This document shows, piece by piece, positions 19,815 to 49,283 of a DNA stretch of 64,000 nucleotides. Within the stretch, counting starts at the first letter, position 1, and each line of letters begins with the position of its first letter. Position numbers and translations under genes: made by a program. The stretch covers positions 1 through 64,000 of the forward strand of contig DUMB01000080.1 of NCBI GenBank assembly GCA_012840085.1, given 5' to 3'. The stretch comes from Clostridiaceae bacterium (GTDB lineage Bacteria; Bacillota; Clostridia; Acetivibrionales; DUMB01). The notes under the pieces are model-generated. The model did not search any database and was not told the DNA's origin. It saw only the letters and a list, made by a program, of their open reading frames with translations.

Positions 19815-19841
19815 TTAGCACTCATTGTCAATGAGTGCTAA
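19815..19841. promoter_or_regulatory. CIRCE element (HrcA operator) of groESL
   Basis: TTAGCACTC-ATTGTCAAT-GAGTGCTAA, perfect consensus. Confidence 0.98.
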
Positions 19842-42164: not shown

Positions 42165-43403
42165 TTAACCCTTGTTTTCTATTTCAAATCTTTTTCCTTC
42201 CCAGTTGCGTAAAACTGCTTTTTCCTTTCCTATCCACATTAAATAGTTGGGCAGAATAGGCGTCTTACCCAATCCTCCGGGACCGTTAACAATATATGTC
42301 GGTATAGCCAATCCCGAAGTATGCCCTCTCAGAGATTCCATGATCTCCAGGCCTTCTTCAAGCTTTACCCAGAAATGCGACGTGCCTTTAACCGTCTTTG
42401 GATGAAAAATGTAGTATGGTTTAACTCTTATCTTAAGAAGGCTTTGATTTAGTTTTCTTACCACATACTTGTTATTGTTGACGCCATTTAGCAGTACCAT
42501 CTGATTACCCAGAGGAATACCTGCATCAGCCAGCATTTCACACGCCCTTTTTGACTCCTCTGTAATCTCCATGGGACTGTTAAAATGTACATTCACATAA
42601 ACGGGATGGTATTTTTTCAGTATACTCACCAATTCAGGAGTTATACGCTGAGGGAGTGTTACAGGTGCTCTTGTTCCAAAGCGTATAATCTCTACGTGCT
42701 TAATGCTTCTCAGCTCAGAAAGAATCCATTCTATAGTTAAATCACTGAGCATAAATGCATCTCCGCCCGTTACCAGAACATCCCTTATTTCCTTGTTCTC
42801 CCTGACATAGTTTATGGCTTTGACCAATTTATCCTTTGAAGAGTGGGTATCGCATTCTCCTATTAACCTTCTCCTCTGGCAGAACCTGCAATACATGCCG
42901 CACATGTTTGTAACTTTAATAATAAGCCTGTCGGGATATCTCCTTGTTATCAGCTCTTCAGGTGTCGACCCGCTTTCATCCATAGGATCAAGCTCTCCCC
43001 TTGGATCAAGCTCACTTATGGAAGGTATGGCTTGCCGTCTTATGGGGCATGATGGATTATCAGGGTCAACAAGCGACAGATAATACGGAGATACAGCATA
43101 TCTGTATAATTCTCCGACCTTCGCAATACTTTCCTTATCCTCAGCGGAAAGATTAATTATGTCACTGATATCCTCTACACTGCTAAATCTGTTTTGAAGC
43201 TGCCATTTGTAGTCGCTCCATTGCTCTTCTGTGGCATTGAGCTTTTCAAGAATCTTTCTCTTCTGATATTTAATTCTTTCATCATCTTCTATACCTGTTT
43301 TGATTTTGTGCTTAACAGCTTCATAATCATCGATGCTATGTTTTAATCTTAAAAACCTCTCCTGATTTGTATTTAATTCCTTACACAAATTATTATTTAA
43401 CAT
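42165..43403 (-). CDS. eam: KamA-family radical SAM aminomutase, probable glutamate 2,3-aminomutase
   Basis: MCGMYCRFCQRRRLIG (CxxxCxxC), DVLVTGGDAFMLSD, PVYVNVHFNSP; HPKTVKG (K336) and TYIVNGPGGLGK (N373) replace the two substrate-binding Asp residues of lysine 2,3-aminomutase. Confidence 0.82.
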   Translation of the reverse strand: MLNNNLCKELNTNQERFLRLKHSIDDYEAVKHKIKTGIEDDERIKYQKRKILEKLNATEEQWSDYKWQLQNRFSSVEDISDIINLSAEDKESIAKVGELYRYAVSPYYLSLVDPDNPSCPIRRQAIPSISELDPRGELDPMDESGSTPEELITRRYPDRLIIKVTNMCGMYCRFCQRRRLIGECDTHSSKDKLVKAINYVRENKEIRDVLVTGGDAFMLSDLTIEWILSELRSIKHVEIIRFGTRAPVTLPQRITPELVSILKKYHPVYVNVHFNSPMEITEESKRACEMLADAGIPLGNQMVLLNGVNNNKYVVRKLNQSLLKIRVKPYYIFHPKTVKGTSHFWVKLEEGLEIMESLRGHTSGLAIPTYIVNGPGGLGKTPILPNYLMWIGKEKAVLRNWEGKRFEIENKG

Positions 43404-43459
43404 ACAACCTACCCCCCTGATTTTAGTAAATCCATTAATACCATTGCCACCTTATTTTT

Positions 43460-43519
43460 TATGCGAATTCATATAATCAGCGCAAACTTAGCATAATCAG
43501 CACGAATTTCGTATAATCA
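43460..43519. repeat. Three-copy 20-bp tandem repeat in the leader of the aminomutase gene
   Basis: TATGCGAATTCATATAATCA / GCGCAAACTTAGCATAATCA / GCACGAATTTCGTATAATCA. Confidence 0.85.
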
Positions 43520-43713
43520 ACACAATTACAGAAACTTTATTGGTATAAAACCACATTAATCCCATTATGCCCCAAAATGTTTACATGTAGCTAATAAAGG
43601 CGGCTTACCAGGTATGTAAAAATTTTACGGTCACTTTTTTATAAGTCCACTTTATTTGCTATAAAGCTTTTATATTTATGAAATATTGCATTAGTAACAA
43701 GTCTATTTATTAT

Positions 43714-43782
43714 GCATGGGAAAACGTATTTCTTTTGCCTGAAAAAATCCGTTTACTTTGCCTGGGAAAACACACTTCCCTT
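43714..43782. repeat. Three-copy 23-bp tandem repeat just downstream of the riboswitch terminator
   Basis: GCATGGGAAAACGTATTTCTTTT / GCCTGAAAAAATCCGTTTACTTT / GCCTGGGAAAACACACTTCCCTT. Confidence 0.8.
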
Positions 43783-43789
43783 AGGCGAT

Positions 43790-43832
43790 AAAAAAAGCAG
43801 TTCATCACCTAACCTAAGTGAAAACTGCTTTA
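43790..43832 (-). terminator. Intrinsic terminator after the c-di-AMP riboswitch
   Basis: AAAGCAGTTTTCACTTAGGTTAGGTGATGAACTGCTTTTTTT on minus strand. Confidence 0.85.
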
Positions 43833-43844
43833 TAGGCAAAATTA

Positions 43845-43978
43845 GAAACAATCTTCCCTTCAAAGCTTTCGAGGTTAGCTGACGGATTCGGACTGAAAGG
43901 AAATTAGCCCTACCGGAAAATATTCCGGATTCACCCCATAATTGGTTCCCCCGTATCCTGTTATTTCAGAAAAACAGG
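43845..43978 (-). ncRNA. Cyclic di-AMP riboswitch (ydaO/yuaA class)
   Basis: GATACGGGGGAACCAATTATGGGGTGAATCCGG...GGTAGGGC...CAGTCCGAATCCGTCAGCTAACCTCGAAAGC...GAAGGG matches conserved ydaO blocks. Confidence 0.92.
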
Positions 43979-44079
43979 AATTCAGCAATTAACATATTGA
44001 CTTTTTGATAAACATTAGTATTAATTTACTTAATTGTTATAATCATTATAATATATATGCGGCAAATTAGTCAAATTGT

Positions 44080-45123
44080 TTAAAATAAAATACAACTTTT
44101 TTGGTATATACTTAAACAAGAAATAATATATGATATAATGCTTTCGGCCCCCATATTATGATTTACCCCCTGAGCTGTCAGGCCGTCAAAGCAGCCGCCG
44201 GTTTCATTTTCAATCAGACATAAGCCTTTGGAGTTGCTTCCCTCGTACCATGCGTGACAGTCTTTTGCCTTTTTTAGGTATTTCCCGTTCCCCGTAGCTT
44301 CATAGGCCTCCATATATGCCAGCACAGCTTCGCAGGCTTCCACAGGCTGCTCATCGAACTCTGCCGCTTTTCCGCCTTTTGTAAGCCACCCGTTGCAACC
44401 AACAGGTTTGAAATACCCTTCCTTAAACAATATATTTTCAAGAAAGCTCATACTTTCCTCTGCTGTTTCAAGAAACTTATTATTTCCCATAACCCTGTAT
44501 GCGGCAAAAAGAGACCATGGCAAAACACTGTTGCAATATGTAACGGTATTTTCGAACCATTTCCAGTCATTATCAGCATGTTTGTCGTATAAGCAGCAAA
44601 GAGACTGTGCCATATCATAAATAAGGTTTTTTATTTCAATATTGTCAAGAAAAGAAAGGCCTATAACAGAATAAGCTTTAGCTCTGGGATAACTGAGTGA
44701 TTTTATATTGGGCAAAGCTTTTTTGAACACATATGTAAGTGCCTGTTTTACCCCCTTGGGTGTATATTCACTGGAAAGCGCATATCCCAATGCCCAGATA
44801 CATCTGCCGAAACAATCCTCTGACCCCTCGTCTTCAAGCCATTTCCTGTCATAACTCATAAAATTCTTAAATTTTCCCTGTTCATTTTGTGCATTCAATA
44901 AAAAGGATGAATATCGGTATATAAGGTCAACATACTTTTTCTCTCCATATGTCTTATATAGCATAATCGACATGATGAGAGCTCTTGCGTTGTCGTCGGT
45001 GGTATACCCGTGGCGGGGATCAGGAACCCAGCACTTTGAGTGCTGGAGCATTCCCGTATCATCAGTAAGCCTGAAAATGTGATCATCTTTCACAATATTG
45101 TTATCATATAATCTGCTTATCAT
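44080..45123 (-). CDS. Predicted (alpha/alpha) toroid glycosidase-like protein associated with GT4
   Basis: SKCWVPDPRHGYTTDDNARALIMSIMLYK...KAEFDEQPVEACEAVLAYMEAYEATGNGKYLKKAKDCHAWYEGSN; overlaps the upstream GT4 gene by 4 bp. Confidence 0.7.
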   Translation of the reverse strand: MISRLYDNNIVKDDHIFRLTDDTGMLQHSKCWVPDPRHGYTTDDNARALIMSIMLYKTYGEKKYVDLIYRYSSFLLNAQNEQGKFKNFMSYDRKWLEDEGSEDCFGRCIWALGYALSSEYTPKGVKQALTYVFKKALPNIKSLSYPRAKAYSVIGLSFLDNIEIKNLIYDMAQSLCCLYDKHADNDWKWFENTVTYCNSVLPWSLFAAYRVMGNNKFLETAEESMSFLENILFKEGYFKPVGCNGWLTKGGKAAEFDEQPVEACEAVLAYMEAYEATGNGKYLKKAKDCHAWYEGSNSKGLCLIENETGGCFDGLTAQGVNHNMGAESIISYIISCLSIYQKSCILF

Positions 45124-46295
45124 ATAGCCATAATGCCCCCAAATCTATCTTTCTCAAGTATATCAGTAAAGAGCTTCGAGTATTGTATTGCAATATTCTC
45201 CCACATCATGCCTCTTCCAATTCTAAGAGTTCTCTTTTCCATTTCCTTTTTTGCTTCAGGATTATTTAATACATATTTAATCTGCTTTGCCAGCGAAGCT
45301 GCATCTTTAAACTCTGCCAGAAGTCCCCTTCCGTCGGCAAGCATTTCTTTTGCATAACTGTATGGGGTGGATACTATCACTTTTCCATATCCTACAGCAT
45401 AGGCAAGGGTGCCGCTAACCGCCTGATCCCTGCCGATGTATGGCGTCATATAAATATCTGACATCTGAATATATAAGATTATTTCTTCTTTGGAAAGATA
45501 CTTGTTAATAAACCACACATGCTCTTTTATCCCCAGCTTGTTGACCATTTCCATAAGCATTTCCCTGTATGCCTCTCCGGACTTTCTTACTATGCACGGA
45601 TGTGTTTGTCCAAGTATAAGGTAAACAACGTCTTTATGCTCTTTCACAACCTCTGCTATGGCCTCAATGCCATATTCAAGCCCTTTTCCCGGACTGAGAA
45701 GGCCAAAAGTGCTGATTACATTGCGATTTGAAAGTCCATGCTTCTTCTTAAGTTTATCCCTGGGTTCAACGGCTATGCAAGGTACTCCGTGATGTATGAC
45801 CTCTATTTTTGAACGGTCTATGCCATAAACTTTTTCAAGCACAGGTAAGGTATTCTTTGCCATTGTAGTAACTTTAGCGCTTTTCCCGCAGAGTATCTTC
45901 AATATGTCCCTCTGTTTATCAGAAGGATTATGAAGAACGGTGTGCAGCGTTACTACAAAGGGTATATGGAGATTATCAACAAGATCTAAAATATATTCGC
46001 CGTCTTCTCCGCCAAAAATGCCATATTCATGTTCAATTACAAGCAGGTCTGTATCTGAGTTGTTAATGGCATGAGCTGTCTTGATGTAACTCTCCCTGTC
46101 GTGCTGTTGAAGTTCCATAATTACTCTGTCACTGTAATTATAGTGTCCGTCACTTATAGCTATAACCCTTGGTTTATTTAAATAATCTGACCTGTCCAGT
46201 TCCCTTACAAGGTCCTGGGTAAAGGTAGCGATTCCACACTCCCTTGAAGGATAAGTACTTAAAAAAGCAACGTTCTGTTTTCTGTTTATAAACAT
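45120..46295 (-). CDS. Glycosyltransferase family 4
   Basis: NVAFLSTYPSRECGIATFTQDLVREL...VIEHEYGIFGGEDG...STFGLLSPGKGLEYGIEAIAEV...GTLAYAVGYGKVIVSTPYSYAKEML. Confidence 0.9.
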   Translation of the reverse strand: MFINRKQNVAFLSTYPSRECGIATFTQDLVRELDRSDYLNKPRVIAISDGHYNYSDRVIMELQQHDRESYIKTAHAINNSDTDLLVIEHEYGIFGGEDGEYILDLVDNLHIPFVVTLHTVLHNPSDKQRDILKILCGKSAKVTTMAKNTLPVLEKVYGIDRSKIEVIHHGVPCIAVEPRDKLKKKHGLSNRNVISTFGLLSPGKGLEYGIEAIAEVVKEHKDVVYLILGQTHPCIVRKSGEAYREMLMEMVNKLGIKEHVWFINKYLSKEEIILYIQMSDIYMTPYIGRDQAVSGTLAYAVGYGKVIVSTPYSYAKEMLADGRGLLAEFKDAASLAKQIKYVLNNPEAKKEMEKRTLRIGRGMMWENIAIQYSKLFTDILEKDRFGGIMAI

Positions 46296-46306
46296 TTAAA
46301 TCCCTC

Positions 46307-46400
46307 CTCTTCTATACCTCTTCAAATCTCTTCTAATTTCTTCTAAATCTCTGCTATGCCTCTTCTTATATCTTCTATGCCTCTTCTCATCTCTTCTATA
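46307..46400. repeat. Degenerate ~21-bp CT-rich tandem array downstream of the nucleotidyltransferase gene
   Basis: CTCTTCTATACCTCTTCAAAT / CTCTTCTAATTTCTTCTAAAT / CTCTGCTATGCCTCTTCTTATAT / CTTCTATGCCTCTTCTCAT / CTCTTCTATA (last copy contains the TAG stop). Confidence 0.85.
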
Positions 46401-47439
46401 CCGCAATCGGATAACTGGATTCTTTGGTAAGAATGCTGTTGTATTCCTCACTGTATCTGTCAACCCTGCAGTTGGACATAATTACGGAGTTAGTCACAGT
46501 AGCTCCTTTTTCTACCGTCACATTATCCCACACTACACTTTCAAGAACCTTTGCCCCTGTACCTATGCATGAGTTATCACACAAAACAGTATTAGGGCCG
46601 ACAACAGCATTGGAATTAATCTGCACATTGCTGCCTATATAAACAGGAGCTATAATTCTTGCACTTTGAGCTATTTTTGCAGTTTTGCTGATGTACTGCA
46701 TCTCTTTTTTGAAATTATGAGTACCGATTTCCACTGCGCCCTTCAGTATGTCCTTGTGCACTTTGAGATATTTCCCGGGTGTTCCCAGATCAAGCCAATA
46801 AGAGCACCGGTTGTAAAGTGCAATTTTAAATCCTTTCTCAAGCAGTAATGGATAGGTCTCCCGTTCAATGGATACAGGCCTTCCGGATGGAATTTCATCA
46901 AAAAGCTCCGGTTCAAATATATAGATACCTGCATTAATCAGGTTTGAACGGCTCTCATGTGGTTGCGGTTTCTCAATAAATGCTGTTATATAATCCTTCT
47001 CATCATGTTCAATAACACCATAGGCCGACGGATTGTCTACATGTGTTGCGGCAATGGTGGCAAGAGCCCCCTTTTTCTTATGAAAGCGTATCATGTCGGA
47101 AATATTAATATCACTTAATATATCTGCATTAAATACCAAAAATGTATCATTGAAAAAGTCCTGAGCATTTTTAATTGCACCGGCAGTACCCAGGGGCATA
47201 TCCTCAGATATATAGCTGATTTTTACCCCGAACTTTTTTCCGTCTTCAAAATAATTTTTAATTTTATGAGGTTTATAACAGGTGCTTAATACTATTTCAT
47301 CTATGCCATGCTTTTTCAGATTTTTAATATTTAATTCAAGAAGCGGCTTGCCCATAATGGGCACCATAGGTTTGGGCAATTCATTTGTGATAGGTTTCAG
47401 GCGTGTTCCAAAACCTCCGGCTAAGAATAAAGCTTTCAT
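46396..47439 (-). CDS. NDP-sugar pyrophosphorylase (mannose-1-phosphate guanylyltransferase-like) with left-handed beta-helix
   Basis: MKALFLAGGFGTRLKPITNELPKPMVPIMGKPLLE...FNADILSDINISDMIRFH...C-terminal hexapeptide-like repeats. Confidence 0.92.
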   Translation of the reverse strand: MKALFLAGGFGTRLKPITNELPKPMVPIMGKPLLELNIKNLKKHGIDEIVLSTCYKPHKIKNYFEDGKKFGVKISYISEDMPLGTAGAIKNAQDFFNDTFLVFNADILSDINISDMIRFHKKKGALATIAATHVDNPSAYGVIEHDEKDYITAFIEKPQPHESRSNLINAGIYIFEPELFDEIPSGRPVSIERETYPLLLEKGFKIALYNRCSYWLDLGTPGKYLKVHKDILKGAVEIGTHNFKKEMQYISKTAKIAQSARIIAPVYIGSNVQINSNAVVGPNTVLCDNSCIGTGAKVLESVVWDNVTVEKGATVTNSVIMSNCRVDRYSEEYNSILTKESSYPIAV

Positions 47440-47582
47440 ATGTAATTCCCCCTAACTATGTTGTTTTTTAGTACATAAATAAAAAGCGTTCTAACCCCTC
47501 TAATTTCAAGACAATACATCAATAACGAGTAACCGTTATCAATATAAACATTCTTAAAATAAAGGAAGATTATAACGCTTTG

Positions 47583-47609
47583 TTAGCACTCGTTAGTACT
47601 GAGTGCTGA
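47583..47609. promoter_or_regulatory. Second CIRCE-like element (candidate HrcA operator)
   Basis: TTAGCACTC-GTTAGTACT-GAGTGCTGA: left arm perfect, right arm 8/9, canonical N9 spacer. Confidence 0.88.
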
Positions 47610-47613
47610 TAAT

Positions 47614-47642
47614 ATTATAGTAAACATTAACTTTTTTGTCAA
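47614..47642 (-). promoter_or_regulatory. Consensus sigma-A promoter overlapping the CIRCE start region
   Basis: Minus strand TTGACA (47642-47637), 17-nt spacer, TATAAT (47619-47614). Confidence 0.88.
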
Positions 47643-48151
47643 ATTTCCAATTGATACAGGGGAAATATTGATATATTATTGCCCGGTGAATATGCTAAAC
47701 AGCAGTCATAAAATTGTTGCTGATTTCCCTTCTCCTTGCCGGGTATCCGTTTACCCTGATTTCCTTATCAAATAATTACGTTATAAACTGCAATATAACA
47801 CTCTTATTAACAGGCAATTTCGTATACCCTACGTTTATTCTAAAAAATCTGCGTCTTTCTTTGCAGGGGTTCATTGCATCACACTTAGCCATAAGCTGGT
47901 ATTATTAATTTAAAGTTATTCGTTGACTATATTTGCGTATGTTTTATACAACCTTTGCCGTTACAAATGCTACGTTTTCATATTATGTTGATTTACTTAT
48001 TTATTGTAAAATTTTAACAATAAGGATTGTTTCTTTTTGGCACAACATATTATACTCAATTGAAACAGGTATATTTATTAAAATGGATGCATTTATTGAA
48101 ATAAATGTATTGAGGTGGGAAATAAGCAACATTGCTGCATAATAAAAAAAT

Positions 48152-48234
48152 CCATTAAAAAATGGCGAACCGTACTGCATGCCACTTAAGCTCTGGCAGT
48201 TCTGATTCACCATTCTAATGGATGTTGTCCGAAT
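48152..48234 (-). terminator. Long structured hairpin followed by T7, downstream of PfkB gene (terminator or small RNA)
   Basis: ATCCATTA-GAATGGTGAA...TTCGCCATT...TAATGGAT-TTTTTT on minus strand. Confidence 0.55.
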
Positions 48235-48272
48235 TAATAGAAGACTATATCCGAAACCATATCCAGAGAAAA

Positions 48273-49283
48273 TTAAAGTTTTCTCTTGGGCATTTTGGTT
48301 ATCATCTCACGAATTGTCTCCACACTCTTCATTCCGTCAGTCGCATTTGCTTCTGAGAGACAGCACACTGCCGCTGCACTTGCAAATTCCAGGCTGTAAT
48401 TATAATCCCATCCTTTGTAAATCGAATACATGATACCTGCGCAAAATGCATCTCCCGCCCCTACTTTACCTTTAATATAACCCGGTGGAAGCTCTATAGA
48501 AGGCTGCATGTAGAAATTTCCGCTTTTGTCCATGGCAAAACCGGCTTCCGGACAATGGATGACAACTAAATCATTGACTCCCATTTCAAAGAGCTTTGTA
48601 CATATATCTTTTATATTCTCACAATTAATATCTTCTTCGTCCCTGGCAGGTATTCCTGATATCATGGATGCTTCTACTTCATTGATTACGCAGTAGTTTG
48701 TGTATTTAAGGCTTGGAGGCACTATTTTGGAAAATCTTTGACTATTTTCGCTTACGACATCTATCAAAGTTTTTAAATTATGGCTTTGCGCTTCTGCCAG
48801 AACTCTTGCCATAACAGTGCCATATTCCTTGTCTTCACTGTCTAATGTGTCCAGTAATAATATGTACCCTATGTAAAGTATATCAGCATTAATTTTTGAA
48901 AAATCAAAATGCTGAGGTCCCAAAACAGCATTTGCCCCTCTGTAATGAAAAAAGGTGCGTTCACCTGTCTGTTCATTCATAACGTCCGTAAAGGATGTGT
49001 TTTTAGAATCATCCTTGCAGATCATACCGGTGTCAATATTGTATTTTTTCAGATAATCAATTATGTACTCGCCATCACTGTCATTTCCCACCACTCCTAT
49101 GGCCTGAAGAGGTATTTGGGAATCCATTTGGGCCAGATCTACAAGACAGTTGACAGGTCCTCCTCCTACGGATTTCTCAATTGATAGTACGGTAGAAAGG
49201 TTTCCTTTTTTAGGATAGGTATCTACTGTCTTAACGTAGTCAATAATCAGGTTTCCTGCAGCAGCAATGCCTTTTCTACTCAT
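48273..49283 (-). CDS. PfkB family carbohydrate kinase
   Basis: AAAGNLIIDYVKTVDTYPKKGNLS...SVGGGPVNCLVDLAQM...GKVGAGDAFCAGIMYSIYKG. Confidence 0.92.
   Translation of the reverse strand: MSRKGIAAAGNLIIDYVKTVDTYPKKGNLSTVLSIEKSVGGGPVNCLVDLAQMDSQIPLQAIGVVGNDSDGEYIIDYLKKYNIDTGMICKDDSKNTSFTDVMNEQTGERTFFHYRGANAVLGPQHFDFSKINADILYIGYILLLDTLDSEDKEYGTVMARVLAEAQSHNLKTLIDVVSENSQRFSKIVPPSLKYTNYCVINEVEASMISGIPARDEEDINCENIKDICTKLFEMGVNDLVVIHCPEAGFAMDKSGNFYMQPSIELPPGYIKGKVGAGDAFCAGIMYSIYKGWDYNYSLEFASAAAVCCLSEANATDGMKSVETIREMITKMPKRKL

Follow-up and report, generated by a model that had tools for sequence, protein, structure and literature searches.

The nucleotidyltransferase-GT4-toroid operon at 44080-47439 of the window, the 64,000-nucleotide stretch of DNA analysed here, very probably belongs to the class I heat-shock regulon of HrcA and encodes a GDP-mannose-dependent cytoplasmic mannoside pathway. 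The assignment draws on the operator site, its promoter, their conservation, the gene content of the operon and the published heat induction of two orthologous genes in Clostridium thermocellum. Accounts of HrcA commonly confine its control to operons for chaperones. With a conserved operon for carbohydrate biosynthesis under CIRCE, the reach of class I heat shock would extend to small-molecule or glycan metabolism. The features of the locus are collected in Table 1.

Table 1. Predicted HrcA operator, promoter, leader and genes of the operon, with the groESL operator of the same window for comparison
Feature	Position	Strand	Evidence or remark
-35 hexamer TTGACA	47637..47642	-	12/12 promoter match, 17-nt spacer; TTGACA-17 kept in relatives
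-10 hexamer TATAAT	47614..47619	-	4-nt gap to CIRCE, the commonest geometry in relatives
CIRCE element (predicted HrcA operator) over predicted transcription start	47583..47609	-	17/18 arm matches; conserved in orthologous operons
Untranslated leader, CIRCE to first gene	47440..47582	-	143 nt; no Rfam match
Sugar-1-phosphate nucleotidyltransferase (NTP_transferase + left-handed beta-helix)	46396..47439	-	Pfam PF00483
GT4 glycosyltransferase (GT-B fold, retaining type)	45120..46295	-	PF00534 above cut-off
(alpha/alpha)6-toroid protein	44080..45123	-	AF2 pLDDT 94; Foldseek to YPO2471, AGE/cellobiose-2-epimerase family
Canonical groESL CIRCE (comparison site)	19815..19841	-	0 mismatches; groES-groEL directly downstream, minus strand

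The site at 47583-47609 reads TTAGCACTC-GTTAGTACT-GAGTGCTGA (TCAGCACTC-N9-GAGTGCTAA in the minus-strand sense) and departs from the HrcA operator TTAGCACTC-N9-GAGTGCTAA at one of the 18 arm positions, an outer-arm mismatch that is also found in relatives. It lies 4 nt from the -10 hexamer of a minus-strand promoter, TTGACA-N17-TATAAT, which runs from 47642 to 47614 and is the sole 12/12 sigma-A match within 43300-48300; weaker promoter-like matches occur there at chance frequency. Lying 4 nt past the -10 hexamer, the CIRCE covers the expected transcription start, the overlap of operator with sigma-A promoter or start that characterises the HrcA/CIRCE regulon. The window holds two CIRCE-like sites with at most three mismatches, and shuffled sequence would be expected to hold 0.02. 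The preliminary description had placed a 17/18 CIRCE around the start of a perfect promoter directed into the nucleotidyltransferase, GT4 and toroid genes, and had put the canonical groESL CIRCE in the same window. The sequence bears out all of this: the three genes lie on the minus strand as described, and groES-groEL directly follow the groESL site. Upstream of the operon, the PfkB gene (48273-49283) has the same minus-strand orientation. No divergent gene can therefore own the site at 47583-47609, and a role as the operator of a divergent chaperone gene was ruled out on this ground. No Rfam element was found in the operon and leader apart from one weak lncRNA match at chance level, and no tandem repeats were found in the leader.

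A search of the 4.09-Mb assembly for the exact CIRCE core gives five sites, and the reversed control pattern gives none. The genes behind the five sites are htpG, groESL (28 kb from the mannoside operon), hrcA, a gene of the ribosomal protein L25 family and the nucleotidyltransferase-GT4-toroid operon. The hrcA gene, which lies behind its own CIRCE, scores 341.6 bits against TIGR00331 (cut-off 197.2). Genomes of the order carry only 1-5 CIRCEs each, which places the mannoside operon among a handful of targets. With groESL and hrcA-grpE-dnaK-dnaJ, the class I operons of the Bacillus subtilis type, the operon shares the 9-9-9 operator over a sigma-A start, in the same genome and with the regulator gene present; unlike them, it has sugar-nucleotide and glycoside genes as its targets and one outer mismatch in its operator. 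The CIRCE before the L25/Ctc-family gene (contig C94, 34645-34671; L007, 4646-4672) is perfect. In several relatives L25 is itself a member of the CIRCE-mannoside operon, following the toroid gene, and it looks like another recurrent HrcA target.

The best NCBIfam model for the first gene product is man1P_GTase (NF052502), whose score of 290 bits is below the cut-off of 440, so the protein is classed only as a sugar-1-phosphate nucleotidyltransferase; its best PDB match is a UDP-glucose pyrophosphorylase. Judged together with its partners in relatives, the product is probably a mannose-1-phosphate guanylyltransferase. The second gene product has the GT-B fold and Glycos_transf_1 domain of GT4 enzymes, and its AlphaFold (AF2) model (pLDDT 91) matches MshA, BshA, PimB' and sucrose-phosphate synthase in Foldseek. 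The third is an (alpha/alpha)6 barrel with a Foldseek TM-score (query) of 0.80 to YPO2471 and about 0.66-0.73 to epimerases; the model suggests likeness to the AGE/cellobiose-2-epimerase family in fold only, and we claim no epimerase activity for it. The GT4 and toroid genes overlap by 4 nt, are paired in nearly all loci, and are fused in Actinomycetota and Bacteroidota. The next gene 3' of the operon is 676 bp away and has a promoter-like site of its own (44074-44045). It occupies 42165-43403 and resembles glutamate 2,3-aminomutase (641.6 bits, cut-off 650). The product of that enzyme, beta-glutamate, is an osmolyte, and such a neighbour would fit a stress-solute neighbourhood.

In relatives, the genes behind the CIRCE include those for GH130, the nucleotidyltransferase, GT4, the toroid protein, phosphomannomutase, mannose-6-phosphate isomerase (ManA) and L25. 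The GH130 partner carries the Glyco_hydro_130 domain (PF04041, 188-193 bits, cut-off 26). In a group of Sporomusaceae/Peptococcaceae type, the nucleotidyltransferase is replaced by ManC with a mannose-6-phosphate isomerase domain. ManC is a recognised GDP-mannose enzyme, and this replacement argues for GDP-mannose despite the guanylyltransferase score below cut-off. The GH130, phosphomannomutase, ManA and ManC partners together suggest that the pathway is specific to mannose and GDP-mannose. The source genome has an orphan GH130 gene on contig C91 (L179, 4059-5051), 84-88% identical to the operon GH130s of relatives; it is unlinked to the operon and has no CIRCE within five mismatches. The operon GH130s are closest to beta-1,4-type phosphorylases, and a beta-1,2-mannan was for this reason not adopted as the glycan. 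In one genome (G014; loci L032, L099 and L132) the GT4 gene and the toroid gene are both broken into a pair of overlapping frames, which may reflect sequencing error or decay of the operon.

Conservation was assessed in homologous GT4 loci from GTDB genomes. After removal of loci with GT4 proteins at least 95% identical, 89 distinct loci remained, with Negativicutes and Actinomycetota thinly sampled, and a CIRCE with at most three mismatches was sought within 3 kb upstream of GT4. One was found in 42 of the 89 loci: 18 sites are perfect, 13 have one mismatch, 10 have two and one has three. Sorted by GT4 identity, 33/39 loci with at least 60%, 8/34 with 50-60% and 1/16 with less than 50% have the site. 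No CIRCE arose in twenty rounds of dinucleotide shuffling of the same 248 kb; the 644 kb of flanking sequence contain a single one, which precedes a GH130 gene. The histogram of best mismatch counts is bimodal, with 42 loci at 0-3, none at 4 and the rest at 5-8. Positions in the arms are mostly 80-100% conserved, a figure partly built in by the search, against mostly 32-59% within the spacer. Most CIRCE loci have TTGACA-16/17-TAnAAT immediately upstream, and the consensus promoter stands 4-8 nt from the CIRCE, most often 4 nt. An absence of CIRCE upstream of orthologs had been named beforehand as a ground for giving up HrcA control, and the proposal came through this comparison.

Some lineages lack the arrangement. 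No CIRCE precedes the operon in A. mesophilus, A. alkalicellulosi, Defluviitalea, Pelosinus, several Sporomusa and others. Genomes of this kind still carry CIRCEs elsewhere, and the link between CIRCE and the operon is thus not obligatory. Upstream of the CIRCE-lacking operons we found no convincing CtsR box or HspR (HAIR) site and no CIRCE with an 8- or 10-nt spacer. Loci with a CIRCE cluster strongly on the GT4 tree, and about 11-13 changes account for their distribution, which indicates a widespread arrangement with repeated loss or gain. The single site below 50% identity is in a Micromonosporaceae locus (L108), where a divergent groEL and a gene for a GT4-toroid fusion flank two CIRCE-like sites (1640-2080). 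Since the groEL is divergent and the sites are assignable from sequence to neither gene, this locus was not used as support; it is a possible actinobacterial parallel.

In the 3,843,301-bp genome that we take to be C. thermocellum ATCC 27405 (G015), a CIRCE without mismatches is followed by genes for GH130, the nucleotidyltransferase, GT4, the toroid protein, ManA, three small proteins and pyruvate:ferredoxin oxidoreductase. The last is Cthe_3120 (PMC3492117) and the ninth gene of the locus, so that by gene counting the operon is Cthe_3112-3116. A microarray study lists Cthe_3112 ('glycosidase related protein') and Cthe_3116 ('mannose-6-phosphate isomerase, class I') among its ten most heat-induced genes, with 30-min values of -2.61 and -2.78; the scale is control minus stress, so that induction gives negative values (PMC3848806). 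The induction published there covers the first and last genes of the orthologous five-gene operon, in another organism than the source of the window. The paper labels the two as 'glycosidase related' and central carbon metabolism; its main text does not mention CIRCE and recognises neither their common operon nor a link to HrcA. The step from promoter to heat induction is thereby supported in a relative, and the expectation of heat induction survived as far as those published data reach. The broader claim of the preliminary description, that HrcA control of a carbohydrate operon would tie heat stress to the making of a glycan or solute, gains support from the conservation and from this reported induction, with HrcA binding as its predicted part.

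The preliminary description had also held that the operon serves a purpose other than chaperone synthesis. This stands for the source operon and for nearly all related loci, where no chaperone genes were found, and fails for Pseudobacteroides and Thermoclostridium, in which groES-groEL form the tail of the operon and have no CIRCE or near-CIRCE of their own. The distance from the toroid stop to the groES start in Thermoclostridium is less than 100 nt. Such tails were seen in six records (L033, L037, G002, G030, G032 and G097), some of which may be the same species. These operons raise the alternative that the CIRCE is hitch-hiked ancestry, in that groESL once followed the operon and then moved away, leaving the operator behind with the mannoside genes, which would have no selected heat role; a divergent groESL with its own CIRCE in Propionispora and the groESL 28 kb away in the window also point this way. 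However, dozens of loci without a nearby groESL have near-perfect arms around a drifting spacer, the mismatch histogram lacks decayed intermediates, and the C. thermocellum operon, with no groESL within the region examined, contains two genes reported as strongly heat-induced. We regard the ancestral explanation as good for the origin of the arrangement and poor as a full account of it, and in the latter sense very improbable.

For the preferred reading, HrcA control of a mannoside pathway, the B. subtilis regulator supplies the model: HrcA stays active through free GroESL, and repression ends when unfolded proteins draw GroESL away (summarised in PMC3828012). From the evidence above we infer HrcA binding, the sugar, its acceptor and a physiological role as follows. 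In the absence of stress, GroEL-activated HrcA would sit on the CIRCE over the transcription start and block the sigma-A promoter. Titration of GroEL by unfolded proteins would cause HrcA to release the CIRCE, and the nucleotidyltransferase, GT4 and toroid proteins would be made alongside GroESL, HrcA-DnaK, HtpG and L25. The nucleotidyltransferase would most likely form GDP-mannose from mannose-1-phosphate, GT4 would transfer mannose to a cytoplasmic acceptor, and the toroid protein may act on or regulate the GT4 product. A GH130 phosphorylase, encoded in the operon in many relatives and on contig C91 in the source genome, may recycle or extend that product, most likely a stress solute or reserve in the form of a soluble mannoside or short mannan. 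GT4 enzymes are of the retaining type, whereas the bonds cleaved by GH130 are beta-mannosidic, and the two may therefore act on different substrates. The Thermoanaerobacter GH130s are beta-1,2-mannoside phosphorylases (PMC4264767), whereas the operon GH130s are beta-1,4-like, so that the mannoside linkage may be of either type.

The genes could instead mannosylate the cell surface or proteins under HrcA control, as envelope repair under stress. The GT4 family includes the envelope glycosyltransferases PimA and PimB', and the only certain output of the operon would be GDP-mannose, a general donor. Against this, the related operons have no recurrent flippase, exporter, polymerase or secreted partner, soluble acceptors are used by several of the closest structural matches (MshA, BshA, sucrose-phosphate synthase), and the GH130 partner suggests an intracellular product. 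The cytoplasmic-looking enzymes and the lack of a recurrent exporter or flippase thus favour a soluble mannoside or short mannan reserve over an envelope glycan, and we consider the envelope role unlikely, though the strongest of the competing explanations.

Among the closest described systems is the GDP-mannose/beta-1,2-mannoside phosphorylase cluster Teth514_1785-1796 of Thermoanaerobacter, in which 1787 corresponds to the guanylyltransferase, 1786 to the GT4 and 1785 ('hypothetical') probably to the toroid protein. It is presented as a salvage pathway, CIRCE and heat being unmentioned (PMC4264767). In that account (Chiku et al. 2014), GH130 phosphorolysis of imported beta-mannooligosaccharides yields mannose-1-phosphate for GDP-mannose, and the cluster does hold ABC importers and two proven beta-1,2-mannoside phosphorylases (PMC4264767). 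In the Thermoanaerobacter genomes examined, however, a CIRCE with two mismatches stands before the guanylyltransferase and after the two GH130 genes, so that its promoter drives only the nucleotidyltransferase (mpg), GT4 and toroid genes. The source-genome GH130, unlinked and without CIRCE, likewise lies outside such control, and the constant HrcA-controlled core is thus biosynthetic. Relatives further add ManA and phosphomannomutase, which would feed the pathway from fructose-6-phosphate. Salvage is accordingly a rather improbable explanation of the operon as a whole.

Mannosylglycerate-type solutes of thermophiles are GDP-mannose-dependent stress solutes, but they are made by GT55/GT78 enzymes, whereas the window operon has a GT4-toroid pair. 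The mannogen cycle of Leishmania presumably has a role in thermotolerance. It handles a beta-mannan reserve with GH130-fold enzymes (GT108, PMC8950772) and is in this respect alike; it differs in being eukaryotic, without a GT4-toroid pair and without HrcA.

The operator, the regulator and the enzyme families are known. In the literature searched we found neither a link of HrcA to mannose or to this operon nor a description of this class of CIRCE target, its breadth or an operon shared with groESL; RegPrecise lies outside that search and may already list such a link. The analysis offers a role for the GT4-toroid pair and assigns a candidate regulator to C. thermocellum genes whose heat induction the main text of the 2013 paper leaves unexplained. 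Going by the comparison of loci, the synthesis of a mannose-based compound looks like a standing part of the heat-shock response in dozens of related bacteria. We give about even chances to the wider proposition that in Clostridia and parts of Negativicutes the HrcA regulon holds a dedicated mannoside-synthesis pathway, in some genomes in one operon with groESL, by which a small-molecule or glycan protectant is made in step with the chaperonin.

A few other CIRCEs were seen among the genomes compared. One precedes a gene for a PF06541 membrane protein in three loci of Acetivibrio-type genomes (L186, L187 and L189; G015 position 2197584). Mapped by position, the gene at L189 is probably Cthe_1851 (DUF1113), which is reported among the ten most heat-induced C. 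thermocellum genes (PMC3848806), and it is a candidate for a further non-chaperone HrcA target. Another CIRCE (L184, 3736-3762) is near an Hsp20 gene that lies downstream of it, and a third (L190, 4440-4466) is at the 3' side of a ClpB gene and before another co-oriented gene; these two may represent variable edges of the HrcA regulon.
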